Of a stretch of 64,000 bases of DNA, positions 9,541 through 31,821 are shown piece after piece. A program made the position numbers and the translations under genes. How positions within the stretch are numbered: the stretch's first letter is position 1; every line of letters starts with the position of its first letter. The DNA is from a virus. The notes beneath the pieces were generated by a model that was not told the DNA's origin, ran no database searches, and was given only the letters and a program-made list of their open reading frames with translations. The stretch spans positions 124,001-188,000 of the IMG/VR virus record IMGVR_UViG_3300027770_000027. The stretch is one strand, 5' to 3'.

Positions 9541-9548
9541 TATTTATT
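9541..9548 (-). promoter_or_regulatory. Late-type promoter box (AATAAATA) embedding upstream stop codon
   Basis: Seven of eight consensus bases, 10 bases from the ATG at 9531. The stop codon of the giant fibre gene (9544-9546) is the TAA inside the box. Confidence 0.55.
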
Positions 9549-12500
9549 GATAATCCCACAGACGAATCAATCTTTCTACTCCGTGAATGGTTACTTTAAA
9601 GAAATCCCCGCTCGCGACTGTTGGAGTTGATATTGAATATGCGTCTTGGAAGTTGATAATGTCTGAAGAATATAAATCTACAATACCAGTTTTACCGTTT
9701 ATAGTAGATACAGTTGCTGGATATACTCCATAACTATATGTATAAACAATTATAGAAACGCCAGCATCTGGCACGGAAGTAAATTGAACAGATCCGCCGT
9801 TGTATAAACTTATAACATAATCTATATCCGGACGTTGAATAACATTTCCGACCAACACCAGATAATTTCTAGCATTTGTGCGAATTATTCCTCCAGGTGC
9901 TAAGGTGTAGAAGGAGTCTATCCCATTTGAGGTCCTGTTGGTTACTACTGGTGGTGGTATATTGAATCCGTGAAAATTTGTATACCACACGTTAACATTT
10001 GAAACCACTGGTCCAAAATCTGTAGAGGTGAATACTATGGATTTACCGCCGTCTCTAGTGATATTAAAGTCTATTCCGGGTTTTTGAACTACACCATTAA
10101 CAGTCACCAAATAATAGGAAGAATTTGTAGCATATTCTGGTGTAAGGCTAGTTGATAGATTGTACGAGGCGGACGCACTAGTTGCAGTAAAAGAGGTATA
10201 AGAGGTTCTTGGAGTATAACCATTTTCATACTGATTAGATCTTACTTGAACCACCGCACCAGTTGGTGGGGCTGAGTCAAATATTAAAAATCCTTGACCA
10301 TCCCCAGCAGATATAGAATAATTTGATGTCGGTGTTTGTACCACCCCATCAATAGCAATTAAATAATCGGAAGCAACGTCGCCTACAAAAGCGGTAACAG
10401 ATGGAGTATTAGTTAGTAAGAAGGAAGTGGTTGAACTGTCTCCATTAAATGTAGAAAAACTTGGACTTGCATAGTAAATATAAGCTGCTGGAGGTCCTAT
10501 AACAACTGGTACAGTGTTGGTAGGAATTTTAATGTTCTTAATCAACTCTATCACATCTATATTAGCACTCAATAGAGTGCCAGTTGTGTTGATGTTTTTG
10601 CCTTCTATGAAACTAGTTGCACAAAAGGATCTGGCAGTTAATGCTCCTTGACTGACAAAGTCATTAGTAACTGTTAAGTTGTTAGTAACTACAGAATTTG
10701 TTGCTCGGATGTCTGTGGCACTAATCAACGGACTGCTCACTCGTACAGAGCCGTATATTATATTACCTGTAATAGAATTTGCAGATAAAGTATTGCCCAC
10801 ACTTAAATCATCTCTTATTATTGCAGAAACTGTATTTATTGTGCTAGTAATATTGGCATAAGTCCCTTGAACTAAAGAACCAGCACATATATCTCGAGCA
10901 CAAACAAATGTAGTAGAATATATATTATAGCCACTTAAACTTTGTGTTGCTTTGATGTTTGTACCACCACAAATATCTCCAACAGAACATATTACATTAC
11001 CCGATTTAATTAAATTAGAGGCATATATAACATTGTCTGATACTAAACAATCCGTAACACAAGCACTTGGTGATTTTACTAAAGATCTACCACAGATAGT
11101 ATTGCCACAAATAGTATTGTATGTATATAGGTTGTTGCTTACGATTAAACAATCAGTAACACAAGCACTTGGAGCTTTTACTAAAGATCTACCACAAACG
11201 ATATCGCCACAAATAGTGTTTGTGGCGCATATACTTCCACCAGTATTAATGGTGTTGCTAGCGTATATAACATTGTCTGATACTAAACGATCAGTAACAC
11301 AAGCACTTGGGGATTTTACCAAAGTTCTGCCACAAACGATATCGCCACAGATAGTGTTTGTGGCACATATGCTCCCACCTGTATTAATGGTGTTGCTAGC
11401 ATATATGCAATTAGAAGATCCTAGATAATCTGTAACACAAGCACTTGGTGATTTTACTAAAGTTCTGCCACAGATAGTATTACCACAGATGGTGTTTGTT
11501 GTGTATATATTATTGTCTACGATTAAACAATCTGTAACACAAGCACTTGGTGATTTTACTAAAGTCCTGCCGCAGATAGTATTACCGCAAATAGTGTTTG
11601 TTGTATAAATGTTATTATCTACAATTAAACAATCTGTAACACAAGCACTTGGTGATTTTACTAAAGATCTACCACAGATAGTATTACCACAGATGGTGTT
11701 TGTGGCACATATGTTGTTGCTAGAACTTATACAATCTGTAGCTGATACGCTGATGGAAAACATTCCATTAACAGCACATATGTTATTTGCAGAACTTAAA
11801 TTGTTAACAAATGTGTGATTGTGGCACACTGCATTTAAGTTAGATCCTAAAATGAAAACATTATTAAAGATTTTAGAATCATTGTCAAATCCACCGGCAA
11901 TGAAAGAATTATCAGAAGAGGATTTATTACCACTACCCGCTCCTATAAATGTGTAGTTACCAGATGAAGTATTCTTTAAACCACTTCCTATAAAGGATTG
12001 AATACCAGAGGCAACTCCACTGATACCGTTGACAATTGTAGAGAAACAATTAGAAGCATTGTTATACTGTCCAGCCCCTACAATTGAATTAGCACTTAAT
12101 ACTGTGTTATTAGTACCACCAGCTATGATAGAATTACTTCCACATACAACATTAGATTCACCTGCTAAGATGGCATTTGAATTGTTATATGTTTTATTTA
12201 ATTGGCCGGCTCCAATTAAATTATAAGAACCCGCTGCAATATTTGAATTACCCGCAATTATGGAAGAGTAATCTGCAGAGGATTGATTGCTACTACCTGC
12301 AGCAACAAACGTATAATGGCCAGAAATTGTATTTTTAACTCCACCAGCAAGAACACTACAATTACCAGACACATTTCCACTCAAACCACCGACAATAGAA
12401 GAATGTGATCCAGAAACAATATTACGTTCTCCAGCCCCTATAAAAGTTTGAACTGCTGCGGATGAGTTGTTAAGACCCGAACTGATTACAGAATTGGCAC

Positions 12501-15500
12501 TTAATGCTGTGTTACTAGTACCCGCACCGATGATAGAACTGTTGCCACAGGCAATATTAAACTCCCCGGCAACAACAGCACTTGAATTGCAATAAACTTT
12601 ATTTGATTGACCAGCTCCAACAATATTACAAGCTCCGAACGTTTTGTTGTTATTACCAGAAACTATAGCTGAATAATCTGCATTTGCGGCATTTGCACTA
12701 CCCGCTACCACTGTGGTGTAATTGCCATTTACTATATTGTTTCTGCCACCCACCAAAGAACTACAACTACCAGCAACATTCCCACTCAAACCACCAACTA
12801 TAGAAGAATGATTTCCAGAGACAGTATTACCTTCTCCCGAGCCTACAAAGGCATTGTTGCCCGAGGAGGTGTTAGTACCACCACCAACAATGGCAGAAGA
12901 ATTTCCAGAATTAACATTACAGCACCCAGCTGCAATGTGAGAAAACCCTCCACTTACTGTATTACAAAGCCCTCCTCCGAGTGTGCTACAATTACCAGAC
13001 ACATTTCCACTCAAACCACCGACAATAGAAGAATGTGATCCAGAAACAATATTACGTTCTCCAGCCCCTATAAAAGTTTGAACTGCAGAAGAATTATTAC
13101 AGAGACCGGCTCCGATAATTGAATTAGCACTTAATGATATGTTACTAGTCCCGCCGCCTATAACAGAGTTGTTGCCACAAACTGTATTAGAATCTCCAGC
13201 CAAAATAGCACTTGAATTGCAATTGGTTTTATTTGACTGACCCGCTCCTATAATATTGCAATTACCATTAGAAATATTAGTACTACCAGAAATGATTGTT
13301 GAAGCATGACCACTTACAGTATTGGCTTTGCCTCCTATAACAACGCTGCAGTTACCGGTTACATTACTACTTAAACCACCCACTATGGAAGAGTGTTGGC
13401 CAGAAACTATATTATATTCTCCAGCACCGATAAAGGTTTGAGCCCCGGAGGTATTATTACCCGATCCCGCTGCTATGAAAGAATTAGTTGCTGTTACAGT
13501 GTTACTGTTGTTAACTCCACCGCCTATAATAGAATTGTTTCCGCAAGCTGTGTTACATTCACCAGCTAAGATAGCATTTGAATTGTTACAGACTTTGTTT
13601 AATTGTCCAGATCCTATAAAATTGTAGTTACCATTAGTTTGGTTAACCGCTCCAGCAACAATAGCTGAATAATTTGCGTTGGCTAAATTGGCGCTACCAG
13701 CACCCACTAATGTATAATTGCCTGTTACAGTATTTTTAGTACCACTGTCAATACTACTGCAGCTGCCAGACACCCGACCACTTAAACCACTTATTATAGA
13801 AGAGTGTTGACCAGAAACAGAATTAGCTTCCCCTGATCCTATAAAAGTTTGAACCGCAAAAGAATTATTACAAACTCCAGATCCTATAAAAGAACTAGCA
13901 CTTAAGGCGGTGTTTGTGGTGCCAGATCCGATGAGGGAATTGTTACCACACACGTTATTGCCGTACCCAGCAATAATGGCACTGGAATTTCCTGAAGTTT
14001 GATTAAATTGTCCAGCACCGATTAAATTATAACCAGCTGTGCCAGAAAGAGTAACAACGTTGTTTATACCTGCAAGTATTGCAGAGTGATCTGAACATAC
14101 GGTATTGTTGACCCCAGTCCCTATAAGAGAATTGGAACCATTGACTGTGTTTAATCTACCACCTACTAGGGAAGCACATGTCCCAGTAACCTTATTGCAA
14201 CAACCTCCAACAATAGATGCATGTGAGCCAGTAACAACATTACAATCACCTGCGCCTATGAAGGTTTGAATGTTATTAGCAGTGTTACAAGAACCAGCAC
14301 CGATGAAAGAATTTGCGCTTAAGGAAATGTTATTAGTTCCCGCTCCTATAACGGACTTGGTTCCACAAAGAGTGTTGGTTTCTCCTGCGATAATTGCATT
14401 GGAATCACAATAAGATTTGTTTTGTTTACCCGCTCCTATTAAGCTACAAGATCCGGATACACAATTGCTTCCTCCGGTTAAAATGGAAGAATAATCACCA
14501 GTCACTTTGTTGCTACTTCCCGCAGCAACAAAGGCATAATTACCAGCGATATTATTAAATTTACCACCACCAACAACACTACAGCTACCAATTACATTAC
14601 TACTAAAACCCCCCACAATAGACGAATGGTCACCATAGACTATGTTGGAACATCCTCCTCCTATGAGGGAAAGATTTCCAGATGCCGTATTAGAACATCC
14701 CGTAACAATACCAGAGGCATTTCCACTGACTACGTTTACGCCGCCGGCACCTATTACAGATAAATTTGAACTTACCGCGTTTGCATTTCCACCCACTATG
14801 GAACTTTGTATACCAGATACATTATTAGAATAACCTGCGGTTACACTAGAATCGGAATTAGTAACCTCATTGCTTCTACCAGCAGTAACAGAAGAGCTAC
14901 AGCCACGAACAATGTTTTGACTACCGGCTCCAACGAAAGAATTTGCACTTAAAGATTGATTTGAACAACCAGCAACGACTCCAGAATATATGTTACAAAC
15001 AGAATTGCTTCTACCAGCAGCAATGACACTACAATTTCCGTTTATAATTTGATTGTATTGTCCAGCTTCTACGACAGAACTATCAGAATTTCTAATTAAA
15101 TTTGAATCCCCGGCGCCTATATAGGAAGTAGTACCACAACTTGCATTATTAGTACCACCAATAATAGTGTTATGAGCGCCTTGGGTACAGTTATTATAAC
15201 CACCCACTATAGCAGAAAATTCATTTCTTGTCAGATTGCAACAACCAGCACCTATAAAAGAATTTGCACTTAAAATTGTATTACTTGTACCCCCTCCAAT
15301 AATACTGTTAATACCATCACTAGAATTTAATACACCAGCACCGACCATGGAGTACTCCCCATTACTGGTATTATTGCCACCAGCCACAACAGCCGACTGT
15401 AAGCCAATAGTTTTATTATAACAACCAGCACCTATGAAAGAATATGGTCCGAATGCATATGCACACAAACCACCAACAATAGTTGCGAAATCTCCAGGGG

Positions 15501-16095
15501 CAGAATTTCTACAACCACCAAGAACATTTGCAAACACCCCAGTAGAGTTAAATCTACCACCACCTATTACCCCGAAAGCATTAGAATTATAGTTATTAGC
15601 ACCGGATCCTATAAATGTATTAATACCATCTGAAACGTTAAATTCGCCACCGCCTATTACACCAGCACAAAAATTAACATAATTAAGTTTACCACCACCA
15701 ACAAATCCTAAATCACATTCTATGTGATTATAACAACCACCGGCAATAACAGCATCATCTCCTACAATTGTATTTCCTTCACCACCACCAATATTTGAAT
15801 ACCATCCAGCATTTATTACTTGATTTGGTCGAGTTCCGGGTACTCCAGAGAGTGGGTTAGAGGGAACTATACCAAAGTGTTGGAGGTTTATGGTAAGCCC
15901 ACGACCGTTAGAACTAGTGGTTTGTGCCCAAGTATACGGATTATATCCTAAAACATAATCTAATAGAACACAAGCGGAGGCTGTTTGAGTGGTAGGACTA
16001 AAATCTAAATTAGTAGCTGCCAAGAAAAGATCGCCGTGTGATATGCTATCAGCACGTGTTAGCTCTGTTAATCTGATGTCGTCTATTGTAGCCAT
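9544..16095 (-). CDS. Giant cysteine-rich beta-roll tail fibre with YadA-head-like repeats
   Basis: 2,183 residues. The N-terminus (IDDIRLTELTRADSI, GDLFLAATN) is a phage-fibre type start. Residues ~100-1420 are roughly 90 short repeats of about 14 residues that alternate patterns such as SSIVGGxSN, xxSGNxSxIG and AGxxNxxxG. They resemble the left-handed beta-roll of YadA or haemagglutinin heads. Residues ~1450-1690 contain six 34-46-residue repeats (NTICGNTICGRTLVKSP, SACVTDCLIVDNN). The last ~350 residues include three copies of the fibre domain also found in the three smaller fibres (YLIAIDGVVQTP, YYLVTVNGVVQKP, YLVLVGNVIQRP). Cysteine is unusually abundant and recurs at fixed repeat positions. 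No signal peptide or membrane anchor is present, so it is a virion fibre, not a bacterial autotransporter. Confidence 0.75.
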   Translation of the reverse strand: MATIDDIRLTELTRADSISHGDLFLAATNLDFSPTTQTASACVLLDYVLGYNPYTWAQTTSSNGRGLTINLQHFGIVPSNPLSGVPGTRPNQVINAGWYSNIGGGEGNTIVGDDAVIAGGCYNHIECDLGFVGGGKLNYVNFCAGVIGGGEFNVSDGINTFIGSGANNYNSNAFGVIGGGRFNSTGVFANVLGGCRNSAPGDFATIVGGLCAYAFGPYSFIGAGCYNKTIGLQSAVVAGGNNTSNGEYSMVGAGVLNSSDGINSIIGGGTSNTILSANSFIGAGCCNLTRNEFSAIVGGYNNCTQGAHNTIIGGTNNASCGTTSYIGAGDSNLIRNSDSSVVEAGQYNQIINGNCSVIAAGRSNSVCNIYSGVVAGCSNQSLSANSFVGAGSQNIVRGCSSSVTAGRSNEVTNSDSSVTAGYSNNVSGIQSSIVGGNANAVSSNLSVIGAGGVNVVSGNASGIVTGCSNTASGNLSLIGGGCSNIVYGDHSSIVGGFSSNVIGSCSVVGGGKFNNIAGNYAFVAAGSSNKVTGDYSSILTGGSNCVSGSCSLIGAGKQNKSYCDSNAIIAGETNTLCGTKSVIGAGTNNISLSANSFIGAGSCNTANNIQTFIGAGDCNVVTGSHASIVGGCCNKVTGTCASLVGGRLNTVNGSNSLIGTGVNNTVCSDHSAILAGINNVVTLSGTAGYNLIGAGQFNQTSGNSSAIIAGYGNNVCGNNSLIGSGTTNTALSASSFIGSGVCNNSFAVQTFIGSGEANSVSGQHSSIISGLSGRVSGSCSSIDSGTKNTVTGNYTLVGAGSANLANANYSAIVAGAVNQTNGNYNFIGSGQLNKVCNNSNAILAGECNTACGNNSIIGGGVNNSNTVTATNSFIAAGSGNNTSGAQTFIGAGEYNIVSGQHSSIVGGLSSNVTGNCSVVIGGKANTVSGHASTIISGSTNISNGNCNIIGAGQSNKTNCNSSAILAGDSNTVCGNNSVIGGGTSNISLSANSIIGAGLCNNSSAVQTFIGAGERNIVSGSHSSIVGGLSGNVSGNCSTLGGGLCNTVSGGFSHIAAGCCNVNSGNSSAIVGGGTNTSSGNNAFVGSGEGNTVSGNHSSIVGGLSGNVAGSCSSLVGGRNNIVNGNYTTVVAGSANAANADYSAIVSGNNNKTFGACNIVGAGQSNKVYCNSSAVVAGEFNIACGNSSIIGAGTSNTALSANSVISSGLNNSSAAVQTFIGAGERNIVSGSHSSIVGGLSGNVSGNCSVLAGGVKNTISGHYTFVAAGSSNQSSADYSSIIAGNSNIAAGSYNLIGAGQLNKTYNNSNAILAGESNVVCGSNSIIAGGTNNTVLSANSIVGAGQYNNASNCFSTIVNGISGVASGIQSFIGSGLKNTSSGNYTFIGAGSGNKSSSDNSFIAGGFDNDSKIFNNVFILGSNLNAVCHNHTFVNNLSSANNICAVNGMFSISVSATDCISSSNNICATNTICGNTICGRSLVKSPSACVTDCLIVDNNIYTTNTICGNTICGRTLVKSPSACVTDCLIVDNNIYTTNTICGNTICGRTLVKSPSACVTDYLGSSNCIYASNTINTGGSICATNTICGDIVCGRTLVKSPSACVTDRLVSDNVIYASNTINTGGSICATNTICGDIVCGRSLVKAPSACVTDCLIVSNNLYTYNTICGNTICGRSLVKSPSACVTDCLVSDNVIYASNLIKSGNVICSVGDICGGTNIKATQSLSGYNIYSTTFVCARDICAGSLVQGTYANITSTINTVSAIIRDDLSVGNTLSANSITGNIIYGSVRVSSPLISATDIRATNSVVTNNLTVTNDFVSQGALTARSFCATSFIEGKNINTTGTLLSANIDVIELIKNIKIPTNTVPVVIGPPAAYIYYASPSFSTFNGDSSTTSFLLTNTPSVTAFVGDVASDYLIAIDGVVQTPTSNYSISAGDGQGFLIFDSAPPTGAVVQVRSNQYENGYTPRTSYTSFTATSASASYNLSTSLTPEYATNSSYYLVTVNGVVQKPGIDFNITRDGGKSIVFTSTDFGPVVSNVNVWYTNFHGFNIPPPVVTNRTSNGIDSFYTLAPGGIIRTNARNYLVLVGNVIQRPDIDYVISLYNGGSVQFTSVPDAGVSIIVYTYSYGVYPATVSTINGKTGIVDLYSSDIINFQDAYSISTPTVASGDFFKVTIHGVERLIRLWDYQ
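11045..11735. repeat. Six intragenic tandem repeats (102- or 138-bp units)
   Basis: Units start near 11048, 11150, 11288, 11426, 11528 and 11630. Each contains the core gtaacacaagcacttggnga (plus-strand reading, one variable base) followed by ctaccacagatagtatt-like sequence. Spacings are 102 or 138 bases, both multiples of three, so the array encodes 34- or 46-residue protein repeats inside the giant fibre gene. Confidence 0.85.
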
Positions 16096-16101: not shown

Positions 16102-16109
16102 TATTTATT
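16102..16109 (-). promoter_or_regulatory. Late-type promoter box (AATAAATA) embedding upstream stop codon
   Basis: Seven of eight consensus bases, 7 bases before the ATG of the giant fibre. The stop codon at 16105-16107 of the upstream gene is the TAA of the box. Confidence 0.6.
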
Positions 16110-16998
16110 CCAAGACCAGGTATTTCTGATAGACATGTTTACTATCTCCAAATTTAGTAACATCTGCCTTAATATATCGTAGATTATAAGCAGGATCTGT
16201 CTTGTCTGTTGCAACTGTTAAGATGTGATAAGGTAGTGGCGTAAACGGATCATAAGGAAACACAGCACAATTTTCTTCATCTAAATCCATATACGGTAAA
16301 TGAAGAGACACTTCTGTGATGTGAAATTGATCCTGTTTACCTGCATTTCCAGGGGATATATTAAAACTCATTATACCAAATTCTAATATTTCATTTTTTA
16401 ATAAGAAAGAAATATTAAATAATCTAGTAGTTTCATTAAATGTAATGACAGGGTCTTCTAGAGTTACATTAAAATTGCTCCAATTTGAAGTTCCTTCGGG
16501 TCTCATTATTAAACGAACTCTATCAAATAATACAGTTTGAACAGTTGCCAGATTCGTATCAAAAACATTTAAATGGATGGTAAAACTGAAACGGCTAATA
16601 GAATTTTTGTTTTCATCCATTGGAGCTACATAAGCATAGTATATTTTGTTTTCATCTTCCTGTAGCCAATAACAACAACGAGTCGAGAATCCTGCATAGT
16701 TTTGGCGTTTTGGAATAATTGGAGTGTAAAAATTATATAAACTAAAAGGAGTTATGCCCCTGTCATCTAAATTAAGTTTTTCAAAGAAATATCCAGCAGG
16801 TGTTTCTACAAAAATGGTATCATAAAAGACGTCAAATCTAGTAACATTATTAGTAGACAAATGATTATAAAATGTTGGATATGCTGTTGCATATTTCATA
16901 TAAACTGCTGACAAGGCAATTGTTGCTGGAACCCTATTGCCTTCTGTGTCTCTAAACCAAAGCTCTCCCCCTTCAAGGGTTTTATTATATAAATTCAT
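16105..16998 (-). CDS. Beta-rich virion protein of unknown function
   Basis: 297 residues, not recognised. It is rich in Phe, Tyr and Asn, with alternating hydrophobic segments suggesting a beta-sandwich (SRFSFTIHLNVFDTN, FNVTLEDPVITFNE, LFNISFLLKNEIL). It contains a CCYWLQEDENKIYYAY segment and no transmembrane or signal segment. It starts 3 bases after the stop of the 220-residue protein upstream and ends 9 bases before the giant fibre, so it belongs to the same late structural run. A baseplate-to-fibre connector would fit the position but cannot be shown. Confidence 0.5.
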   Translation of the reverse strand: MNLYNKTLEGGELWFRDTEGNRVPATIALSAVYMKYATAYPTFYNHLSTNNVTRFDVFYDTIFVETPAGYFFEKLNLDDRGITPFSLYNFYTPIIPKRQNYAGFSTRCCYWLQEDENKIYYAYVAPMDENKNSISRFSFTIHLNVFDTNLATVQTVLFDRVRLIMRPEGTSNWSNFNVTLEDPVITFNETTRLFNISFLLKNEILEFGIMSFNISPGNAGKQDQFHITEVSLHLPYMDLDEENCAVFPYDPFTPLPYHILTVATDKTDPAYNLRYIKADVTKFGDSKHVYQKYLVLE

Positions 16999-17001: not shown

Positions 17002-17664
17002 TTACAATTGGTGGATGTTGGGGTTTAAATTATTTTTAGAGTCGTAGGATTCTTGTATTTTATATTTTTTGAAAAATGGAGATGGTAATATTTTAGTTAA
17101 AGGTTCTACCGGAGTAGGTCCCCACTTGACCAATACTGGTAATAGATAGCTCGGATTAAAAGATTCAAAATTATATAAAAGAGTGTTGTCAGCTCCAAAC
17201 ATACGAGAGGATGCTAAATGAATGTTATCAAAATAATGAGCTTCTATATCATCTAGACTAGCATTTAGGTTAGGAGCTCTTACTTCTAGAACAAATTCTA
17301 TAAAGTTGTGATTAATTGCCACCCTTTCATCTGCAATCCAATACCAAGTTATTTTGATAATATATTGTTCTGTAATACCATTTGTTGCATGATATGTGTG
17401 ATCAATGGTAAAATTTCTAGGATCTCCGGGTTCTGATGAAAATGGAACTCCGGGAGTAACAACATTCGGTTTAGCAAACAGTTTTTGGGTAAATTTAGGA
17501 GAATTATCTCCAAATTCATACACTATTTTATAAACTTTGTGTGAAAGACTTCCACTGGCTCCGTTATCCAAAGCTCCTGGATTTAAACTAAGTTTACAAG
17601 GACCAACACCGTAAATAATTTGGCCAAACAGATCTTGATTTAAATCTACGGTTATATGTGACAT
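17002..17664 (-). CDS. PKD-like fold virion protein
   Basis: 220 residues. The segment from ~45 to ~130 has PKD-domain features: YKIVYEFGDNSPKF (compare W-x-FGDG), then IDHTYHATNGITEQYII (the HTY...G.Y element) and KITWYW. PKD domains are Ig-like beta-sandwiches used as spacers or for protein-protein and glycan contact on surface structures. The remainder is not recognised. It lies between the RCC1 fibre and the 297-residue protein with short spacing, so a virion role is likely. A GATAAATC sequence lies 4 bases upstream (17668-17675), a weak version of the late box. Confidence 0.5.
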   Translation of the reverse strand: MSHITVDLNQDLFGQIIYGVGPCKLSLNPGALDNGASGSLSHKVYKIVYEFGDNSPKFTQKLFAKPNVVTPGVPFSSEPGDPRNFTIDHTYHATNGITEQYIIKITWYWIADERVAINHNFIEFVLEVRAPNLNASLDDIEAHYFDNIHLASSRMFGADNTLLYNFESFNPSYLLPVLVKWGPTPVEPLTKILPSPFFKKYKIQESYDSKNNLNPNIHQL

Positions 17665-17698: not shown

Positions 17699-20239
17699 TT
17701 AAACAAACCATTTTGTAATTTCTGTAGGAGTTCTGACAGGGACATTTAAAGGTCCAGAAATATTATTAACTGAATCTGAAGCAGTCAAAAACAGACGATT
17801 TTTTGTATCTTTTATAAGAGTGCCATAAGCATCTGAACCGTTGCCAAAGAATTCTACTTGAGATACATAATTGATAGCAACAGCACTAAGAAACGGACTA
17901 GCTTGAGCAAACGTGGTGTATTGGTTGGGAGCTCTGTAACCTGCTAAATGTAAAAAGTTATCCGTGGTAATTCCTCCCAGCAGTGAAGCTCCACTACCAT
18001 TATCACTAGATACTAATTTGGAAAATTTAACACCAGAGTCAAATGCATAGGAAATCGGAGTAGCAACTGAATAAGAAGTAGTTGTTGTTCCTAGTCCCAA
18101 TTGTCCGTTAACATTATATCCCCAAGAGTATATCTTACCAGTCTGTGTAAGAGCCATGCAACTGACGTACTCTCGTCCACCAGTTGACACAAAATCTATT
18201 GCATTGGTTACATTACTCACTTGTTTAAAGAATGACGCTGAGGTGAATGCATAATTACTCCCCAACGCTCCATTAATATTAGAACCACATGCCCATATAG
18301 TAGCATCATTTTTTAAAGCATATACCACTGAATTATCAAAAAAACTATTGCGTAAAATTTTTGAAACACCGGTAAATTGTGAGCCGGCAGCTATTAAAGC
18401 CGCACTAAAATAATAATTACTTGTAGTGGTTCCAAAAGTTCCCTGTCCCAATTGTCCGTAGTGATTAAATCCCGCCGAATAAAGAAGATTATTTTTTAAA
18501 GCCAATGTGTTAAAATCTTTGGCAAATATTTGAGACACATTTGAAGACATTGCTGGTACTAAAGTCGGAACGTATACTGGATTGGCATGTCCTAAACCAC
18601 ACTGGCCATAGGCATTGTTACCCCATGTGAATAATTTGCCTAAAGAGGTCATGACAGCAAAATTAGCAACTATAGGCTTAGACACCGGCAAGTTCATTCC
18701 ACCACTAAGTAATGATCCGGTCCAGTGCTTGGTAAGATCTGAAGAAGTGCCCATCTGGGGTATGGCGTAGTCAAAATCTGATACAAATGGCTGACTAGCT
18801 TCTGATGGAAATAAAACCTTTTTAAGTTGGTATTCTGTAGCATTTGCCGAACCACAACTCAATTGTCCCTGAGCATTATCACCAGCAAACCACAAAGTAC
18901 CATCACTTAGTAATGCTCCTAGGTGGTTTTTACTAATAATGACCTTGGTTATGTTAACAGAAGGATTTTTTAAATTGTAATTATTGGCAAATGGAAATAC
19001 AACAGGAGGCCACACACTGGCAGGTGCTCCTGGTGCGGTGTTTGTTCCATTTCCCCATACCAATATTCTATTGTCACTAGTCACCACAGCTGAATTAAAC
19101 ATCCCTCCACTGTGATGGGCTATGCTCTTGATATAAGTGGTTTGCAAAGCAGCTGAGGTGATAGCAGTTCCGTCTGCAAATGTCACTCCACTCAGAGCAC
19201 TAAAACTACCACTCATAGAAATGCCGCCGTTTAAAGTTTGTATACAAGTACTGGCAACTGAGGTTTTAAGAGTGTTGGTGGTTTTTACCAAGTTGGTATC
19301 TGGGTCTACTATTATCGTAGATCCGTCAACATTGAGACAAACGGTTGAAGTTCCTATAGTGCGAGTAAGGCCTCCTCCGAAACCATACCCCAAACATAGT
19401 TTATTACTACCATTAATTTTAATTGAGTCTGCATCGACGCATACTCCTATTTTATTAGCAGAGTATCCAATGGCGCCAGCAGTCTCTACAGAAAGAGAGG
19501 TTTGTAACTTGCCGGCAACAATTTTAATGGTACTATTATCAGGAGCAACAGAAAGAGTTTGACTAGTGGTATCATAAGCTAATCCGTCTCCAAAGTTATA
19601 TTTTCGAGCAGGATCTAATTGGATAGCACCGTTGATGATCTTGATGGTATCATTATCCAAGATTGGGACTACATCCCAAGTAGGGATTACAGCCGTGGAA
19701 TCATAAACAGAATTAAGACCACTACCAAATCTATATGTAGTAAAAAGATTCCCAGATAAAACTATAATTTTACTACCATCTGCCGATAGAGCCGAAAATA
19801 TAGAATATAAGTTAGAGTAATTGTTAACCAATTCTCCAGCTTGATTTAAACAGATAGTGTTGTTGTCTACACAGGCCGTTACCAGACTACCCAACTGTTT
19901 TAAACCAGCGCCGTAAGATAATGTTGCTCCCTGGGTACCTGTAAAGTTTTCTGCAGCAACCGTTCCATGGACACAGATACTGCCATTGAAAATAGAAGTG
20001 CCTCCACGAGCATCAATAGGAGTGGTTCCGTATGCACAAATTCCGGTATTCTGGCTATAGAAATAACCAGCAACTGCGCTCAAGGGAGCCACCGCACTTA
20101 ATGCTCCATTAAGAACAAAATCCCCTTGGAAGGGGCTGTCCGGACTAGCAATTGGATCATGTCCTGCATCTGGATTTGCAGAATTTGTATAAGTGTGGTG
20201 ATTGCGTCTGTGGTATTTGGAATGAAAACGGTCACTCAT
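17699..20239 (-). CDS. Tail fibre carrying an RCC1-type seven-bladed propeller
   Basis: 846 residues. The first ~380 are fibre-like, with repeats of the type NSTIKIVAGKLQTSL, DNDTIKIINGAIQLD and GFGGGLTRTIG. Residues ~383-825 contain at least six RCC1 (regulator of chromosome condensation) repeats: ILVWGNGTN, TLWFAGDNAQGQL, LFTWGNNAYGQCGLG, LLYSAGFNHYGQLGQG, TIWACGSNINGALG and KIYSWGYNVNGQLGLG. The W/A-G-x-N-x-x-G-Q-L-G core is diagnostic of this propeller. RCC1-like propellers bind proteins or ligands; on a phage fibre a receptor-binding role is inferred. The start codon is followed by a His/Arg/Ser-rich stretch (HSKYHRRNHHTYTNS). Confidence 0.8.
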   Translation of the reverse strand: MSDRFHSKYHRRNHHTYTNSANPDAGHDPIASPDSPFQGDFVLNGALSAVAPLSAVAGYFYSQNTGICAYGTTPIDARGGTSIFNGSICVHGTVAAENFTGTQGATLSYGAGLKQLGSLVTACVDNNTICLNQAGELVNNYSNLYSIFSALSADGSKIIVLSGNLFTTYRFGSGLNSVYDSTAVIPTWDVVPILDNDTIKIINGAIQLDPARKYNFGDGLAYDTTSQTLSVAPDNSTIKIVAGKLQTSLSVETAGAIGYSANKIGVCVDADSIKINGSNKLCLGYGFGGGLTRTIGTSTVCLNVDGSTIIVDPDTNLVKTTNTLKTSVASTCIQTLNGGISMSGSFSALSGVTFADGTAITSAALQTTYIKSIAHHSGGMFNSAVVTSDNRILVWGNGTNTAPGAPASVWPPVVFPFANNYNLKNPSVNITKVIISKNHLGALLSDGTLWFAGDNAQGQLSCGSANATEYQLKKVLFPSEASQPFVSDFDYAIPQMGTSSDLTKHWTGSLLSGGMNLPVSKPIVANFAVMTSLGKLFTWGNNAYGQCGLGHANPVYVPTLVPAMSSNVSQIFAKDFNTLALKNNLLYSAGFNHYGQLGQGTFGTTTSNYYFSAALIAAGSQFTGVSKILRNSFFDNSVVYALKNDATIWACGSNINGALGSNYAFTSASFFKQVSNVTNAIDFVSTGGREYVSCMALTQTGKIYSWGYNVNGQLGLGTTTTSYSVATPISYAFDSGVKFSKLVSSDNGSGASLLGGITTDNFLHLAGYRAPNQYTTFAQASPFLSAVAINYVSQVEFFGNGSDAYGTLIKDTKNRLFLTASDSVNNISGPLNVPVRTPTEITKWFV

Positions 20240-20259: not shown

Positions 20260-20267
20260 TATTTATC
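20260..20267 (-). promoter_or_regulatory. Late-type promoter box (GATAAATA)
   Basis: Seven of eight consensus bases, 21 bases before the ATG at 20239, the longest spacing among the minus-strand boxes in the fibre island. It overlaps the end of the upstream gene (stop at 20266). Confidence 0.5.
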
Positions 20268-23200
20268 ACAAAGGGCTGGAGATATTGCTACAACAATCTG
20301 AAGTGGCTCCGTCCCATGTTTTGGTCCAATCTCCAGATTCATATTGAATGGGAAAACTGCTTCTCAATTCTGCGTAAGTTATTGGATTGACATTACATAT
20401 TCTTACAGTCGGTAAACTTAAGTTGTAAGATGCCATAGCACTCCAGCTCCAACAAAATCCATTAGGACATAATACAGATATTCCGGAATTTTCTATTTTA
20501 AAGTCTGGCAGAGATATAGCGGATATGTCTAAGAATTCTTTTAGACTAACAATAGATTCGTGCAATTTTCGTAATTCTCTGTTAAGAACCTGGGGAATAT
20601 GGTATTCATTAACAGCAACTCCTAATGTTTCATTTTCAACTGCATCATCAAAAAGTGGTCTCTCTTGTACTGAAACTGGTACCAATGCATAATATGTAAC
20701 TACTCCATTGAATGTTTTTTCCGTTACTTTAGAAAATTTAGCATTTAGCATGTTTCTAAACATTTTAATGTTTTGGGCTATTCTGACCAAACTTCTATTA
20801 TAATTTGTATCTGTTGCAAATTCATTTTTGTTTATTATAAGCTGGTCTTTTGTCCAATAATCATAAGGCAGACCGTTTCCGATCTTAAAAAGGTTTACAA
20901 CGTCTTGCAATTTAATAATTGCATGAGCAGAACATATTAATAAATGTCTGCTATGGGACTTTCTAATGGAAGTTGCTGTGAATCCAACTGGAGTTGCCCA
21001 GCTACCTATAAACATACCAGCTGCAGAAAATTTAAACAGGCGAGATCCTCCACCTGGTACTGATACTAAAACGTATAGAAATTCTCCAGCTTCATCAAAT
21101 GTTATTTTCTTAACGGTGCTACGACGAGGCACTACAGACCTAATAACACTTGCTATAGAAAAATTGAATATGGGTTCTGATTTAGAACTATCAAAAACAT
21201 ATATGGTATAATCTTTGCATAACACATACGCCATTCCATCAAAATTACTAGCGATGTATAGTGGCTGGTTGGTGTTAAAATTGCTGGTGTAATATGTATG
21301 TACCCAGTTTAAATCTTGAGTAAATTCTTTGACACATTTGTTGTTGTAATCTAAAACAAATAAATGATTTTCAGAACAACACAGGTCTGATGGTGCATTA
21401 AATTTATTAGGGTCTTCTTTACTTCCAAATCCACCGACATTAATAGAAACATTTAAAGCCGGTAAATCTAAGTCCACTTCAAGGCAAACAATTTTATTAC
21501 GAGGAGGGTCAAGCACATAGACATAACCCCCATCTGGACTCGTATCCATTTGGGTTGGGGATATAAACTCTAAATTTAAATCTTCTGAATTAATGAATGG
21601 ATACTCAGAAGGTTTAAAATGATTATTATTAAACATTCTGACTCGATTTTTGTCTAAAACATAAATAGCATCTGGTGTTTCTATAACATCTTTTAGGCTA
21701 TTAAAATAACTAACACCAGAACCCACCGCTTGATTAGGAAGCTGGTAATATTTGTCTCCAAAATTGCGAGTATACCAACGAATACCGTCAGCCTTTTTGC
21801 TAGTGCTGGTTCCAAGCCATCCGTAATATAATGTAGGAAAATCCGTGTTTATAGACTGTATATTTTCTGATAAATATGTGATATTGTCATTTAATCTAGT
21901 TATAGCCGTATTAAAAATATCTGAATCTCCCCACTCATTTGGTTGAATTTCTATTTCATTTAAACTATATGGTAATTGAAGTATGTCTTCACTTAAGGTT
22001 CTTATATTTTCTTGATTATATGCAGCCCACTCTGATTTAACAATGATTGGATATTGTAAGGTTCCACTTTCCATAGACCCATCAGAATATATAGCATCAT
22101 ATGTTATATAATAGGAACCCGGGGCACTATAGGTATATTTGACTGGTTCATTTTTATAAGAAATGACATAATCTTGTTCATTTTCTCCAAAGTTAGTTCT
22201 GTAAAAAGATATTAAATTATCTTCTTGTTCGTTGGGTGCGGTGTATTCTATAAAAATCTCTTCACCCACTAATGTAATAAGATCTGAAACAAATGCCTCT
22301 GGTTGCTTTCCGGTATTAAAGGCAACCAGAGTTTGAGTCTTTTGAGAAGTTAACGATGTGGTTACTGTATGAGCACTCCATAAATCTCTACTTGTTGGCC
22401 AGTTTAATACAGAGACGTCATCAAAAGTTGTTGATTGGATAGATACCGGAATGTCTGCTTTTAACACCTTTACAGATATTGTAGTATTTGCGGCATTGGT
22501 TATATACCCCTCTTCAAAAGGATCTCCTATTTTAAAATCTAGAGCTTTAAAAGTTCCTTCCAAAGCAGATATTTCAACTACTCGGGTCCAGTATGGTGTG
22601 GTTATTAAATATGTTATATAACCAAGATCAAGTAAAGGTTGAACTGGATTTGTTTTTGGAGAAGAACAAATAGTTTGTGTTAGTGATAAGGTTCTAACCC
22701 ACCCCAAATCCATTTTATTATTTTTATTAGCAATCTTAAAACTAAAAGTAATGTCTGTGTCAGCTGGGACAATTTTAGGATTCCATTTAAAATTATTTGA
22801 TAAACCACTAGTTCCAAAATTATAAGAACACGCAGTTAAAGCATATGTTTGAGTGATTAAAGATCCACCAACACTAGCGGGTTTGACGAAATACAGTGGA
22901 TATGAAGATGGATACATTTCACTAAACGCAGAAAGTCTAATGGGTAGTCCGGTGTTGCTGAAAAATTCTGTAGTATATGGAAATTCAACCAGAGCCACGC
23001 GACTATTGATGGTTGAAAGAAATGTGCTATTTGTTCCTATAAGATAATCATATTCACTAAAAGATTTATTAGCACTAAGATAAAAATTTTGAGTTTTAGT
23101 TTTTTTAGAAGTATATGCCGTGGGTGATTGTGCTAGTGTGTAATTGGAAGTATTGAGTAATGTAAGGTTTCTACCACTTAGCCAAGCATATTCTGGATAT

Positions 23201-26064
23201 GTTACAAATTCTAAAGGTCTGTAAAAGTCTGAAACTGTTGGGGTAAAAATCTTAACACTAGTGGATACACTATGATATGGTATGCCTATAAGGTCCATGT
23301 CTGGGTTTGTTAGAATGTTGGGAATGTCCCAACCTACAGCTACAGCACTTAGAGCACTTAGAGTTATTATAGTAGTTTTAACTAACGGATCTGTTATCTT
23401 GTATTGAATGTAGTGATCTTTGTATTGGACTCTAACAGATGAAGTAAATCCAGTGTTATTAGAAATAGACCAAACATATGTTGAACTTAATGCTACGTCT
23501 GACGTATTTGCACTGGATAATGTAAATATGTTGGTGCCGTCATTTGGCCTGGTCAGTGTGTATACATCATTTGCGGTATTTAACACCGTAGCAGATGTTT
23601 CAGAGTATCCAGTATATGTAATGTTAAAATCAGAATTTAATAAATCTCTAGAAGGAAATTCATCCACAAAGAATTCATAATCAGTCCAAAAACGTGGACT
23701 TCTTACGTCTGATACTAAAGAAAGTTTTACAGAGTGTATTGCTGGAATAGAATTACTATATTCCGGAACTACTTGCACATATATAGAACTCAAAGAACTT
23801 TGATCTAAAGTGGTTCCATATTCATAAGGAGTTAATTTTCCAGCAGAAAGATAAGAAACTGATATAGGAGTTACTAGAGGATCGGTAATATGGTCGTATT
23901 TCCATAACCAATACAAGGGGGTTCCTTCTGGTATTGGATATGTCTGGCCACCAAACGGTATTTTTGCAGCTACTTGTAAATATCGGGTTCTTTCAAAATT
24001 ATTGATAGGCGCCACAGCATATATGTTAAAGGTCCTCTCATCAAAAGCGTCGTATAAACCAGTATTACTTGATACATTGGTAGTTTGTCTATATTTCTGA
24101 GAAGATAGAGTAATAGTTACAGAATTTAACCCGTAACCAGACAACTGAACCGTGCTAGATTTCTCAGAAAATGGAACTACTTGATTGTTTCTAAAGGAAG
24201 AAAGTACATTCCCTAAAGAATCTATAGAATAAAATGAAAGATTTAAATCTGTAGGAGTATAACTCCATTTAATATTAGAACCTCTTAAATCTTTGGAAGG
24301 CCATCCGGGACTTGCAGTCAACATATTACAAGTAACTGTAAAATTGCCAATGGTTTGTCCTACAATATCTAAGAAAATTGGAGACCCTCCAGAATCTTGA
24401 GTAATTCCCTCTGCTAATTTTATTAAAGTTGCGTTTTTACCAGAAATAAAACCAGCTGCAGAACTCAAGGTGGGGCGCAAACTAAGGTCTATTTCTCCAT
24501 AAGTTGCATGTGGATATGTAAGAAATAATTTTGTAGCAGATGCAGCCGGTATCCAAGGAGATGATATTAAATCATACACTTGATCTAAATTAGATCCATA
24601 ATATGCAAAAACAGAATTGAGACTTAAAAATTGTCTGTCGCCCACTACTTCAAATTTAACAACTTCGTTGATGGAATTGTTTACTAAATCATATGAGAGA
24701 AGATTAAAATCAGACGCTATATAGGTTGAAAGAGTTACTGATGTGGTAGTGCTATTTAAGGTTGCGGTGTGAATATCAAAATTTAAATTACAGGTATCAG
24801 ACAATTTATTAAATCCGAGATTGGGTGCTAATAAAGAAGTTTTATAAGAGTAATAATGTGGAGGATACTTGGTGCACCATTTAATTATCTGATTATAACA
24901 ATTGTTAGATGCTATGGCAGATCCCAAGGCAACAGAGGTTCCGTTTATTTGAAAAGTGCTCAAAGTGCTGTTAACAGTTTCAGAAGAGAACAAATAACCA
25001 CTATCAGAACAGAACCGAGCTCCTATATTGGTGCCCGGTACCCCTGTTACAAAATTTGTAAGAGTCTTGCCATAGTAATCATTTTTATTATAATATGATA
25101 AACTAGCAGCTGACAAATTCCAAACAGCACTTAACACGCAAAATTTTGAATCATTCAAAACTCCTTCTCCTCCAGCGGGCTTAAACTGGAGCAGTTGATA
25201 AGTTTGAATATTATTTCCTATTTTACTCTGATCTAATATAAAAGAACTCTTGAATCCGTGAGTTCCTCCTATTACAATATCTGGAGGATTTTGTCCCAAT
25301 CTGGCAATTTTACCCTGGGCATCCATATAATTAACTTCATAAGAAATAAAGGTAGAATCTGGTCTTATAACAGATGGATAATTTTTTTCTAATGTATCGG
25401 CTTTGGTTCTTGGATTATAGGAAGTATCAAATGTAATGAACGGAATGTCTATGCGAGTTCTGGTGGCACTCAGGTCAAACACCAAAGAAATACTAGAATC
25501 TGAGGGCAATTGATAAAAAGAGGGCCCTGTGTTTAAAAATTGTTTGTGTTTTTCAAAGGATAATGATTCCGCATTTGTAGAATTAAAGAAAAATGATGTT
25601 GGGTTGGATACTACTGCTGATGTTGATAATATCCAAGAAGATGCTCCCTTGGTTAAAGATAACGGTTTTAAAAACAGCCTAGACGGATATAATAAATACG
25701 AATATATGTTTCTATACTTGGCTGGATTTCCTGGATTATTATTAACGTAAAAATAGTTAAATTGGGGCCCTAAATTATAAGACATTCTAGAGGAAGATAG
25801 GTCCCATGTAAAAGAAGCGCCTTTGTCTATATTAATAATGTACTGTCCTATGTCATCCGAAAAAGTATATCGAAAATTTTGATATAAAACTGGGTTTATA
25901 GAGTTTGTTTCATTCAACGGATTGTTTACATATCTAAATATGTTTTCCGCCGGCTGGTCCGCTACACGTGGATCTATAAGTTGAGAGCTAGTTGATATTT
26001 TGTATGTCTCAACTGGCCAACTTCTCTGTGTTTCAATTAAAAATGCAGAATCTGTCTCACCCAT
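20266..26064 (-). CDS. Very large tail/baseplate-associated protein with PKD-like and NHL-like parts
   Basis: 1,932 residues, probably one of the largest virion proteins. Residues 1-1250 are beta-rich and not recognised (many Ser/Thr/Tyr strands). Around 1270-1345 is a PKD-like segment (YTYSAPGSYYITYDAIYSDG). Residues ~1475-1710 look like an NHL-type propeller (TSPDGGYVYVLDPPRNKI, CCSENHLFVLDYNNKCVKEF, EAGEFLYVLVSVPGG). The C-terminal ~220 residues contain helices (NRSLVRIAQNIKMFRNML, HIPQVLNRELRKLHESIVSLKEFL) and a Cys-containing end (CPNGFCWSW, SDCCSN). It follows the gp7-position protein by 25 bases, so it is likely attached to the baseplate periphery. T4 has no obvious equivalent of this size and make-up. 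Confidence 0.55.
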   Translation of the reverse strand: MGETDSAFLIETQRSWPVETYKISTSSQLIDPRVADQPAENIFRYVNNPLNETNSINPVLYQNFRYTFSDDIGQYIINIDKGASFTWDLSSSRMSYNLGPQFNYFYVNNNPGNPAKYRNIYSYLLYPSRLFLKPLSLTKGASSWILSTSAVVSNPTSFFFNSTNAESLSFEKHKQFLNTGPSFYQLPSDSSISLVFDLSATRTRIDIPFITFDTSYNPRTKADTLEKNYPSVIRPDSTFISYEVNYMDAQGKIARLGQNPPDIVIGGTHGFKSSFILDQSKIGNNIQTYQLLQFKPAGGEGVLNDSKFCVLSAVWNLSAASLSYYNKNDYYGKTLTNFVTGVPGTNIGARFCSDSGYLFSSETVNSTLSTFQINGTSVALGSAIASNNCYNQIIKWCTKYPPHYYSYKTSLLAPNLGFNKLSDTCNLNFDIHTATLNSTTTSVTLSTYIASDFNLLSYDLVNNSINEVVKFEVVGDRQFLSLNSVFAYYGSNLDQVYDLISSPWIPAASATKLFLTYPHATYGEIDLSLRPTLSSAAGFISGKNATLIKLAEGITQDSGGSPIFLDIVGQTIGNFTVTCNMLTASPGWPSKDLRGSNIKWSYTPTDLNLSFYSIDSLGNVLSSFRNNQVVPFSEKSSTVQLSGYGLNSVTITLSSQKYRQTTNVSSNTGLYDAFDERTFNIYAVAPINNFERTRYLQVAAKIPFGGQTYPIPEGTPLYWLWKYDHITDPLVTPISVSYLSAGKLTPYEYGTTLDQSSLSSIYVQVVPEYSNSIPAIHSVKLSLVSDVRSPRFWTDYEFFVDEFPSRDLLNSDFNITYTGYSETSATVLNTANDVYTLTRPNDGTNIFTLSSANTSDVALSSTYVWSISNNTGFTSSVRVQYKDHYIQYKITDPLVKTTIITLSALSAVAVGWDIPNILTNPDMDLIGIPYHSVSTSVKIFTPTVSDFYRPLEFVTYPEYAWLSGRNLTLLNTSNYTLAQSPTAYTSKKTKTQNFYLSANKSFSEYDYLIGTNSTFLSTINSRVALVEFPYTTEFFSNTGLPIRLSAFSEMYPSSYPLYFVKPASVGGSLITQTYALTACSYNFGTSGLSNNFKWNPKIVPADTDITFSFKIANKNNKMDLGWVRTLSLTQTICSSPKTNPVQPLLDLGYITYLITTPYWTRVVEISALEGTFKALDFKIGDPFEEGYITNAANTTISVKVLKADIPVSIQSTTFDDVSVLNWPTSRDLWSAHTVTTSLTSQKTQTLVAFNTGKQPEAFVSDLITLVGEEIFIEYTAPNEQEDNLISFYRTNFGENEQDYVISYKNEPVKYTYSAPGSYYITYDAIYSDGSMESGTLQYPIIVKSEWAAYNQENIRTLSEDILQLPYSLNEIEIQPNEWGDSDIFNTAITRLNDNITYLSENIQSINTDFPTLYYGWLGTSTSKKADGIRWYTRNFGDKYYQLPNQAVGSGVSYFNSLKDVIETPDAIYVLDKNRVRMFNNNHFKPSEYPFINSEDLNLEFISPTQMDTSPDGGYVYVLDPPRNKIVCLEVDLDLPALNVSINVGGFGSKEDPNKFNAPSDLCCSENHLFVLDYNNKCVKEFTQDLNWVHTYYTSNFNTNQPLYIASNFDGMAYVLCKDYTIYVFDSSKSEPIFNFSIASVIRSVVPRRSTVKKITFDEAGEFLYVLVSVPGGGSRLFKFSAAGMFIGSWATPVGFTATSIRKSHSRHLLICSAHAIIKLQDVVNLFKIGNGLPYDYWTKDQLIINKNEFATDTNYNRSLVRIAQNIKMFRNMLNAKFSKVTEKTFNGVVTYYALVPVSVQERPLFDDAVENETLGVAVNEYHIPQVLNRELRKLHESIVSLKEFLDISAISLPDFKIENSGISVLCPNGFCWSWSAMASYNLSLPTVRICNVNPITYAELRSSFPIQYESGDWTKTWDGATSDCCSNISSPL

Positions 26065-26089: not shown

Positions 26090-29000
26090 CTATTTGTTCA
26101 ACAAATTAAGTCCGTTATATAATTCATAACTAAACATAACATCTATAGGACCCCCATTATCATACCAGCGCTGGACAGATGAGAGATCATAAGATAGAGT
26201 AGTTACCTCATTATCCCAGTCTATTACACCTTCTAGCTGTTTGCCTTCTGGTCCTGGAATATACTCATAAAATTCATAATACAAATTCCAAGGTTGTTTT
26301 AATCTTAAAAAATTTGCTAATATGTTTATAGAAAATTTAGGCAATAAAATTGGTCCTGGATATATTAATCTATAACTATTTGTATTTTTAGTTTTTAAAA
26401 CAACCGGAACATCTGGATATACTATATATCTGTCTGGATTTATAAGGGCTCCTCTGTTATAAAAACCACCTATGCCATAATCTCTTTCATGAAATTCTAA
26501 CATACAAGCATCCTTAACACCTCTTAAACGAGATAAATTAATACTTGTTAAATCAATTAACCTTTTAATAGCTGGTGGATATTTCATGCGAAAATCATCT
26601 GTATCTAGATCTACCATTTCAGACAAACTATAGAGTTGGTCTAAGTTACAGGTATCCACATCCACATGATTCATGGAGAAATTTGCAATTTTTTCATATA
26701 TAGCAACTCCCAAATCTTGATGAGAAGAAGAGCCGTCTCCGAAAATAGACGCAAAGAATTTATCATATAATACAGAACTATCTTGGAGACGAGGGACATA
26801 TGATAAACTCTTCAAATAATCTGCCATGTTAAAGGTTTCATTTAACTTGGCTACATTAAATGCTGGTGTGTTGTCTGTGTAAAAATTTAAAGAATTTGAA
26901 ATACCAGAAACACTTAATACAAATGGCTGGGTGGTTCCCGTAGAGAGAGTGTTTCCGTATTTATTAGTCCATCTAAACCCAGTCCAATCTCCCTGAGCTT
27001 GTAGAGATTTGTTATATACAGAATATGCGGTTTCTTGATGGTTGTTTTTGTCTATATAACTGACAAATCCTTGAGGATTTATGAAAAAACTAGATTCAAT
27101 GGCCAGAGTGTCTTTGTCTATAACATAAACTTGATTTTCTATAGAATTTATTACATATATTTTCCCATATAAACTATAAGATATGCCTTCTAACGCAGTA
27201 AAATCATCATTAGGCTCCAAAGAGGAGTCATTTACCACTTCTATGGTGTCTAATTGGTAGTTGTCATGTCCTAAAAGGTCTGTGGTTACTGTTATTTTGC
27301 CTACTGACCTGTAATCATAGGTAAACCATAAATCTTGATCAGCATCTATAGTAAGATTGTTTAGCCCTTTGAAGGGACCAAATCTAGCATCCTCTAACGG
27401 ACTCATATTATGGTTTCTTTTTTCTATATACCCCAAATAATCTCCATCATCACCGGCTAGAGATACCCAAAAGTCTCCAAAATTGTCACATACGATCTCC
27501 TGTGGGGTAGACCCCACATCAAATGTATTATTTGCGTCTAAAACAGTTCCATCAGAATCATATTTTACCACAAAACTGCTTATCGGATGGGAATATGTAA
27601 TATATACATTATTATCCATGTCCGTATCTATACCAGTTGGTTCTATTAAATTGACATCATCAAATAAATTAATAGTTCTATCAAAATAAGAAATTTGATC
27701 ATACCAAGAAAGTGTTTGATTTTGTATACTAATGTTTGCATTATAAGGCAAACCAATTGCAACGGAAGATGGTGGCACAACTGCTGTTAAAAAATTTCCA
27801 AATGAATCTAATTTTATAGTAGATGGAGAATCATACAAAGTAATCCATATATTTTGAAATTTGTCCAAAACCATAGTCGCAGGAGTCACTACCCCCGGAA
27901 TACGAGGTGACAATCCATTAGCAACTACCAAGGCATTTAAATCAATGGCACATAATATTTGGCCCTTTGTGGTGGTTCTATACAAATATTGTAATTCTGA
28001 ATCAAGCATCCAAGCATGGAAGTGTGGTGCCGGAGTAGCTGCTATGCTATAAATGCCATGAAACCCACTTAGTCCTGTGGATTTTACAGGCATGTCAAAG
28101 TTATACACATGAGCAACCGTCTTTTGAGGAATCACGCTTGTTAATTGTTCTTTGAGCGTGTTATACTGAGCTACCGCCACCAAGCCAGCTTCGGGATTAG
28201 ATAACCATAAAAGAGGGTTTATTAAATTAGAACTTAGAGAAGGAATTGGTATATTTGCAATTGATCTTATGTATACATCTGTTTTATTAACATCTGCTAT
28301 ATCAAACATTCCCTTATAATATCCAGGCCTTTTGTGTAGAGAATAATCAGACCATTCAAACCGAGGAGGAGAGTCAAATGTACAATCTATTGGAACAAAT
28401 TTTTGATAAAGAGCAGACAATTCAATAGTTTCGGTAATTGTTGTAGATAGTACTTCTGTTTCAGTGGTAGATATTGATATTGTTTCAGTGGTTGAAAGAG
28501 TATAATACACACTTTCGACAAATTGTCCTGTTTCTACGGCTATGTCAAAATTTAAAGTGTTTAATAATGGAAAGTTGTGTAAGAAAAATGAATCAATGTT
28601 TGGCACTGCCACTCCATTGCCATCTATCCAGTTATCTACATATCTAGAAGATATTGAAGCAGACACCACTATTGGATTTTTCCCAGTTGACCATCGAGGA
28701 TTTGCATATGCTCGTAGACCATTCTCAGAAATTTTTAAATAATCTGGAGATCTCCAAACTGTAAGATAGGGAATGGCTATTGACGCTCTACTATTGGAAA
28801 AATTTGATAAGAAAGTGCTGGATTCTGTTTGTAAATTAAAATCTTTTGCGTTTGCGGTCTCTAAAGTTGCCACTATGCATGTATGAGCTTCTCTAGAAAC
28901 TGCTAAATCTGTATTATACAAATCTTCTATAAAATAAAATTCTGCATATCCACTAGTGCCTACAACATGTGTGCCAGTTGGGGTCAAAATTCCTTCATCA

Positions 29001-31299: not shown

Positions 31300-31821
31300 T
31301 TATAGTACAAGAATATCATTTAACGTTAAAGCTTGTGTATTAAATTTTAATTGCAATTTATTTAACATACTAGATGCTTTTATTGTGTAATTAATTTCTA
31401 TATAATACTGCAATTCGTCATAAAGAGGTGTTATATTGACTCCGGTAAAATTGACTCTTGTTTCAAATTTTTCTAGATTTCTCAATATATCACTTGCTAT
31501 TACGTGGGCATTAAATTCTGAAAGGGGTTCAAATAAATATTTGTCTAATCTACATCCAAATTCCGGAGACAGCACTTTCCATCCTGGTCGGGTCGTTATT
31601 ATATTTACAAGAGAGTTTGAAATAGCCTTTGCATCATAGTCAGCTTGTATATCTTTGGTGTTAGCAGTGTCCCAACCGGTGCCAACTGTTTGGGAAAATA
31701 TTAAATCTAGGTGTAAATCGGTATAAGTATATTGAGATGGTGTTGGTTCTTTGCCCAATACCGTCCCAGTTGCCTTAGTTTGACGCGGTTTGACTAAGTT
31801 ATCTAGATAAATAGCAGCCAT
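31300..31821 (-). CDS. 25: Baseplate wedge protein gp25 (GpW/gp25 lysozyme-like fold family)
   Basis: 173 residues; T4 gp25 has 132. The family core is RPGWKVLSPEFGCRLDKYLF, followed by EPLSEFNAHVIASDILRNL and the C-terminal strand INYTIKASSML. The EPL/EFGC-type segment is the signature of the gp25/GpW-like family that sits at the sheath-baseplate interface and starts sheath polymerisation. The N-terminal ~45 residues (NLVKPRQTKATGTV) are an extension. It is the first gene of the minus-strand baseplate run and has a perfect late promoter box. The divergent plus-strand gene begins 37 bases away. Confidence 0.88.
   Translation of the reverse strand: MAAIYLDNLVKPRQTKATGTVLGKEPTPSQYTYTDLHLDLIFSQTVGTGWDTANTKDIQADYDAKAISNSLVNIITTRPGWKVLSPEFGCRLDKYLFEPLSEFNAHVIASDILRNLEKFETRVNFTGVNITPLYDELQYYIEINYTIKASSMLNKLQLKFNTQALTLNDILVL

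Follow-up and report, generated by a model that had tools for sequence, protein, structure and literature searches.

What would a bacterial virus do with an RCC1 propeller at the end of a tail fibre? The best-known bearer of this propeller fold is eukaryotic RCC1, a Ran exchange factor that binds nucleosomes, and an interaction with Ran, histones or DNA would be unexpected in a bacterial virus. The question is raised by a gene in the window, by which we mean the whole 64,000-nt stretch analysed here, positions 124,001 to 188,000 of the 227-kb IMG/VR record IMGVR_UViG_3300027770_000027. The original prediction held that this gene encodes a T4-like phage tail fibre ending in RCC1 repeats. Its product can be divided into three parts:

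17699–20239, minus strand: RCC1-tipped fibre gene, 846 aa, ATG start (ORF; Pfam, PHROG and PDB RCC1 matches)
20030–20239, minus strand: anchor, residues 1–70 (MSDRFHSKYHRRNHHTY...NPDAGHDPIAS...), a conserved N-terminal module (kin identity)
19145–20029, minus strand: repetitive stalk, residues 71–365 (∼295 aa), with recurring 'D(N/D)xTIxI...' units (sequence)
17699–19120, minus strand: predicted RCC1 propeller tip, residues 374–846 (AF2, Foldseek, alignment)

The RCC1 assignment proved sound. Both repeat peptides quoted in the original prediction were found in the ORF, and the proposed profile search gave significant matches to Pfam RCC1 (PF00415; E = 4.1e-25, 88.5 bits against a cut-off of 21.7) and RCC1_2 (E = 1.6e-18, 66.3 bits against a cut-off of 22). 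By its ∼50-aa repeats, which score over the curated threshold in both families, the protein belongs to the RCC1 repeat superfamily. PF25390 (WD40_RLD, RCC1-like domain) is a stricter whole-domain model, distinct from the RCC1 repeat family itself; here it gives E = 4.3e-38 and 132 bits, under its cut-off of 150 bits, with 142–146 bits for the orthologs and 178.5 for a more distant RCC1 case (L109). PHROG families named 'regulator of chromosome condensation' also match (best E 3.5e-31), and the closest solved structures by sequence are UVR8 (9e-20), HERC1/2, RPGR and RCC1. A repeat profile finds five clear repeats plus two weak ones in the fibre protein, eight in the protein of another locus (L054) and mostly 6–8 per phage RCC1 protein. 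Elsewhere in the 227-kb record PF00415 has no match, nor has it any in 14 control genomes.

Structure prediction, the other check proposed, points the same way. An AF2 model of the last 473 residues, built on a 60-sequence alignment, has a pLDDT of 77.1, a pTM of 0.81 and eight blade-like hairpins, and its best Foldseek matches in the PDB are UVR8, HERC2, RPGR and RCC1 (E 1e-20 to 1e-15), with BLIP-II ranked lower. The tip is thus predicted to have a propeller-like, all-beta fold resembling that of UVR8 and RCC1. For UVR8, the match probability is 1.00, while the TM score normalized to the target is only 0.64–0.69. Given this, and because the alignment reveals seven repeat hairpins in UVR8, one fewer than the eight of the model, the phage propeller may possess an eighth blade.

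Two details of the predicted anatomy needed revision. The propeller is indeed C-terminal, with a range of about 374–846 instead of 383–826; its C-terminal end, R.P..IT.W.V, is conserved in the ortholog alignment. What had been described as a ∼380-residue stalk contains a real stalk, which aligns with gaps among orthologs, preceded by the ∼70-residue anchor. A full-length AF2 run with four sequences (pLDDT 37) was set aside, leaving anchor and stalk without a confident model, and residues 1–365 match no PHROG family. Anchors vary from one phage group to another, so a fibre need not resemble a known family at its N-terminus.

The genes around the fibre gene are those of a tail module:

31300–31821, minus strand: baseplate wedge subunit, gp25-like (phrog_261, E = 7e-29)
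29521–31296, minus strand: baseplate wedge subunit, gp6-like (phrog_219, E = 5e-40)
26090–29518, minus strand: 1142-aa protein with PKD, occupying the gp7/gp8 position (Pfam PKD, conserved synteny)
20266–26064, minus strand: large protein of the baseplate region (1932 aa) that contains a weak NHL stretch and serves as synteny marker (kin identity and synteny)
17002–17664, minus strand: 220-aa protein encoded immediately after the fibre gene, kept in kin whatever the tip
16105–16998, minus strand: 297-aa protein, kept in kin whatever the tip

Upstream of the fibre gene lie gp6-, gp25-, gp23-, gp22-, gp21- and gp20-like genes together with a tail-sheath stabilizer. These matches bear out the predicted T4-like affiliation: the record is that of an uncultured T4-like myovirus, whose portal shares ∼30% identity with those known from cyanophages and enterophages. 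The fibre gene stands directly behind the baseplate genes and is followed by the two small conserved genes, a position in the baseplate/tail module marked by the gp25- and gp6-like genes upstream and by synteny in kin. No reverse transcriptase was found in the phage's own record, and there is therefore no sign of a diversity-generating element; the record also lacks a photosystem gene. The window contains no tRNA, and so offers no host clue of that kind, and its promoter-like sites are no more frequent than in shuffled sequence.

This setting bears on a function already proposed for phage RCC1 proteins, namely that they bind or condense DNA as RCC1 does in eukaryotes, and organize the genome inside the head. 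DNA condensation was suggested for phAPEC6 (PMC7247149) and repeated for W70 (PMC11370258), and the category given to PHROGs 4219, 7220 and 16766 is DNA, RNA and nucleotide metabolism. However, both papers infer the DNA role from the family name, and here a tail anchor and a stalk precede the propeller in one protein, encoded beside baseplate genes. Together with the further evidence below, this makes a DNA-condensing role very unlikely for the window's protein.

Comparison with kin indicates that the part behind the anchor is exchanged. Three loci (L015–L017) have full-length syntenic RCC1 orthologs at the same gene position; in L015 and L016, the anchor is 74–76% identical to that of the window, compared to only 36–37% for the full proteins. 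Two other loci (L018 and L019) have the same neighbours and an anchor 67% identical, while the remainder is a different repetitive protein without RCC1. The 1932-aa upstream protein is 48–49% identical in L015–L017 and 38% in L018. Residues 1–380 alone, used as a query, found no relatives; a search with the 70-aa anchor alignment found them in 56 viral loci. Most anchor loci with enough flank carry the same upstream baseplate protein, and the two downstream genes too where present. Among 25 anchor representatives, five have RCC1 and two have Peptidase_S74, a known end of phage fibres and tailspikes; the S74-bearing kin match many tail-fibre PHROGs. That kin replace the propeller with S74-ended fibres is a second argument against DNA condensation. 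Another RCC1 case is L109/L127, in which the anchor shows 85% identity over 52 aa, and other kin have further unrelated ends, neither RCC1 nor S74. When the last 250 residues were clustered, 29 non-RCC1 tips fell into one group, probably through loose linkage. In L054, the RCC1 tip sits behind a different, beta-roll-like stalk; recombination thus also occurs between stalk and tip.

The upstream protein was used to build a maximum-likelihood tree, on which the RCC1 state requires at least three changes, with gain and loss indistinguishable in direction; three are forced by well-supported branches. A single RCC1 clade on this tree was rejected (p-AU 0.0024). The fibre thus combines a conserved N-terminal anchor with an exchangeable C-terminal tip, and since lineages exchange the part after the anchor, the propeller appears to be one of several alternative host-recognition tips. 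The anchor has no relative among 50,697 records of isolate phages (tblastn, E ≤ 1), so its role in attachment is deduced from position and conservation.

In six loci, the anchor is a separate short protein (133–142 aa in L062, L063, L064, L068 and L069; 86 aa in L051). The anchor gene of L062 is immediately followed by a long repetitive ORF, which suggests that two separate genes can encode anchor and fibre.

One observation runs counter to a host-binding tip. Between close relatives, the tip has a dN/dS of 0.07–0.16, similar to that of the baseplate gene, indicating purifying selection with no sign of diversifying selection, whereas receptor-binding tips often change rapidly. This would fit a structural spacer or baseplate cap, the receptor being bound by another fibre, and the phage does have several other fibre-like proteins:

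2113–5880, minus strand: 1255-aa fibre-like protein with Chlorovirus glycoprotein repeats, BNR/Sortilin-Vps10 and a minor-tail-protein C-terminus
9544–16095, minus strand: 2183-aa protein with 13 grass-antifreeze beta-roll stretches (PF21300, E 4e-27)
61185–64000, plus strand, continuing outside the window (L173:1186-5859): 1557-aa fibre-like protein with NHL repeats

The 1255-aa protein has a propeller-like BNR/Sortilin-Vps10 region from residue ∼874, with weak WD40 matches in the PDB. In the middle of the 1557-aa protein, three or more NHL repeats score above the curated cut-off; its gene runs in the opposite direction to the tail genes examined here. Beyond the RCC1 fibre, the phage thus seems to have two fibre-like proteins bearing BNR/Vps10 and NHL repeats, respectively. 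Kin homologs of the beta-roll protein range from 1349 to 1802 aa, which suggests a variable number of repeats. Any of these three could be the receptor-binding fibre of the spacer or cap alternative. Nevertheless, the RCC1 part is C-terminal and is lost or gained independently of the anchor and neighbours, as expected of a host-range module and not of a required structural part. We regard a spacer or cap as unlikely.

Are RCC1 tips confined to this group? The original prediction had called an RCC1 propeller on a phage fibre unusual. That was too strong: a tip scan of IMG/VR found 89 viral stretches that encode relatives (80 were kept), several types of fibre N-terminus precede the repeats, and RCC1 proteins have been found in the virions of isolates (PMC11370258, PMC5259590). 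All 47 representative viral proteins from the tip scan and earlier scans have an RCC1 match. Of these, one carries PF12571, the tail-collar fibre N-terminus (L125, E 7e-40), and one Mtd_N (L107, E 1e-7). CBM_5_12 is matched in 21 of the 47; the CBM_5_12-like module, which accompanies RCC1 in many proteins of environmental phages, apparently lies near the N-terminus. With the RCC1 part removed, many N-terminal pieces from 40 proteins match tail-fibre PHROGs, among them phrog_9851 (18 pieces) and phrog_5073 (15); four pieces match a family of gp9-like tail-fibre connectors. The PHROG rows overlap, so that these counts are not additive. One piece still matches an RCC1 family (phrog_4219, E 1e-211), probably via a long N-terminus in that family. 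A scan of genome contigs yielded only distant bacterial RCC1 proteins.

Named phages give a similar picture. In Pseudomonas phage SeaP4, the RCC1 protein (gene 12) is encoded right behind a lytic transglycosylase gene and shows a weak T7 tail-fibre N-terminal match (E 6e-5, just below the cut-off). In cyanophage S-SRM01, the RCC1 gene directly follows an S74-containing distal long-tail-fibre gene. Viral structure matches of the tip include an annotated tail fibre of Pseudomonas phage Littlefix (A0A2K9VHT9) and a T7-fibre-like protein of PollyC (A0A2K9VI36); papers on these two phages mention neither RCC1 nor propellers. The search for other RCC1-bearing phage fibres was thus successful, and the presence of the propeller behind T7-fibre (weakly matched), tail-collar and Mtd-type N-termini is a third point against DNA condensation.

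Some RCC1-rich ORFs look different: those of the viral contigs L007, L009, L012 and L142 (∼1,300–3,100 aa) consist almost wholly of RCC1 repeats, without an obvious fibre anchor. RCC1 repeats also abound in a 1593-aa ORF of Clostridioides phage ES-S-0173-01 that lacks an annotation (L079:6015-10796).

The propeller could also be an enzyme acting on surface polysaccharide, in the manner of a depolymerase. Phages K1F and phi92 do have propeller endosialidases (PMC4901313), but the relatives found here are of the RCC1 family only, the well-studied ones binding or regulatory, and Pfam gave no enzyme family match to the fibre protein. This is the least probable of the alternatives, and barely tenable.

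Collectively, these data favour a modular fibre whose C-terminal RCC1 propeller is a putative, swappable host-binding tip, a reading to which we assign a probability of roughly 0.8. Tip swaps in kin, together with the same fold on the fibres of other phages, make an interchangeable host-recognition module most likely, over a DNA-packing protein. The first ∼70 residues would attach the fibre to the baseplate region, the ∼295-residue repetitive stalk would project the propeller outward, and the propeller (residues ∼374–846) would be the distal domain contacting the host cell surface, its ligand perhaps a glycan there or an outer-membrane protein; lineages of this uncultured T4-like group would swap the part after the anchor. 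For this fibre, we infer virion presence, a trimer, an attachment partner, distal exposure and receptor binding. The adhesin role originally proposed therefore stands as the best inference from tip swapping on a conserved anchor, though a putative one.

A wider reading, to which we give about even odds, makes the RCC1 propeller an adhesin module of general use in phages, mobile and perhaps eight-bladed, that has repeatedly been grafted onto T4-like, T7-like, tail-collar and Mtd-type anchors. The DNA-condensation annotation would then be wrong for most phage RCC1 proteins, and this phage would display several propeller families (RCC1, NHL and BNR/Vps10) on different fibres. If phage RCC1 proteins are fibre tips, many host-range determinants have been overlooked in environmental viromes, and phage host-recognition domains gain another class, a propeller noted for binding proteins tightly, as in BLIP-II. 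Exchange between anchor and tip offers a direct route to testing this role.

Propeller receptor-binding domains (PMC4901313), RCC1 proteins in virions and the wide distribution of RCC1 in phages are already known. New here are an RCC1 tip on this T4-like anchor with documented exchange, and evidence that fibre-borne RCC1 members are probably mislabelled as DNA-condensation proteins. Our literature search, with thin coverage of subscription journals, turned up no proposal that RCC1 serves phages as a receptor-binding tip.

How does the window's fibre compare with known systems? Phi11 Gp45, PRD1 P2 and phiKZ gp131C have propellers as (putative) host-binding domains on a virion spike or fibre (PMC4901313); these are five- or seven-bladed, without RCC1 assignment in that paper, and we saw no RCC1 sequence link to them. 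UVR8, the HERC2 RLD, RPGR and RCC1 share fold and repeat sequence with the phage tip, but are eukaryotic regulators. Relatives of the tip were found in Bifidobacterium, and bee-gut bifidobacteria have cell-wall-anchored RCC1-repeat surface proteins (PMC4449606); unlike the phage fibre, these are LPxTG proteins with 2–4 RCC1 domains each. Septuagintavirus W70 and GAP32 also have RCC1 proteins (W70_237-239 and GAP_001), which mass spectrometry identified in their virions (PMC11370258, PMC5259590); phAPEC6 and 121Q have multi-copy RCC1 homologs. At ∼40–43 kDa, however, the W70 proteins are too short for the window's anchor and stalk, and were read there as condensing DNA. Parallels among fibres are SeaP4 gene 12, PollyC A0A2K9VI36 and Littlefix A0A2K9VHT9, in which, as in the window, a C-terminal RCC1-type propeller sits on a tail fibre. 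These Pseudomonas phage fibres have a T7-fibre-type N-terminus or are podovirus fibres, whereas the window's propeller is carried by an unrelated anchor on a T4-like baseplate.
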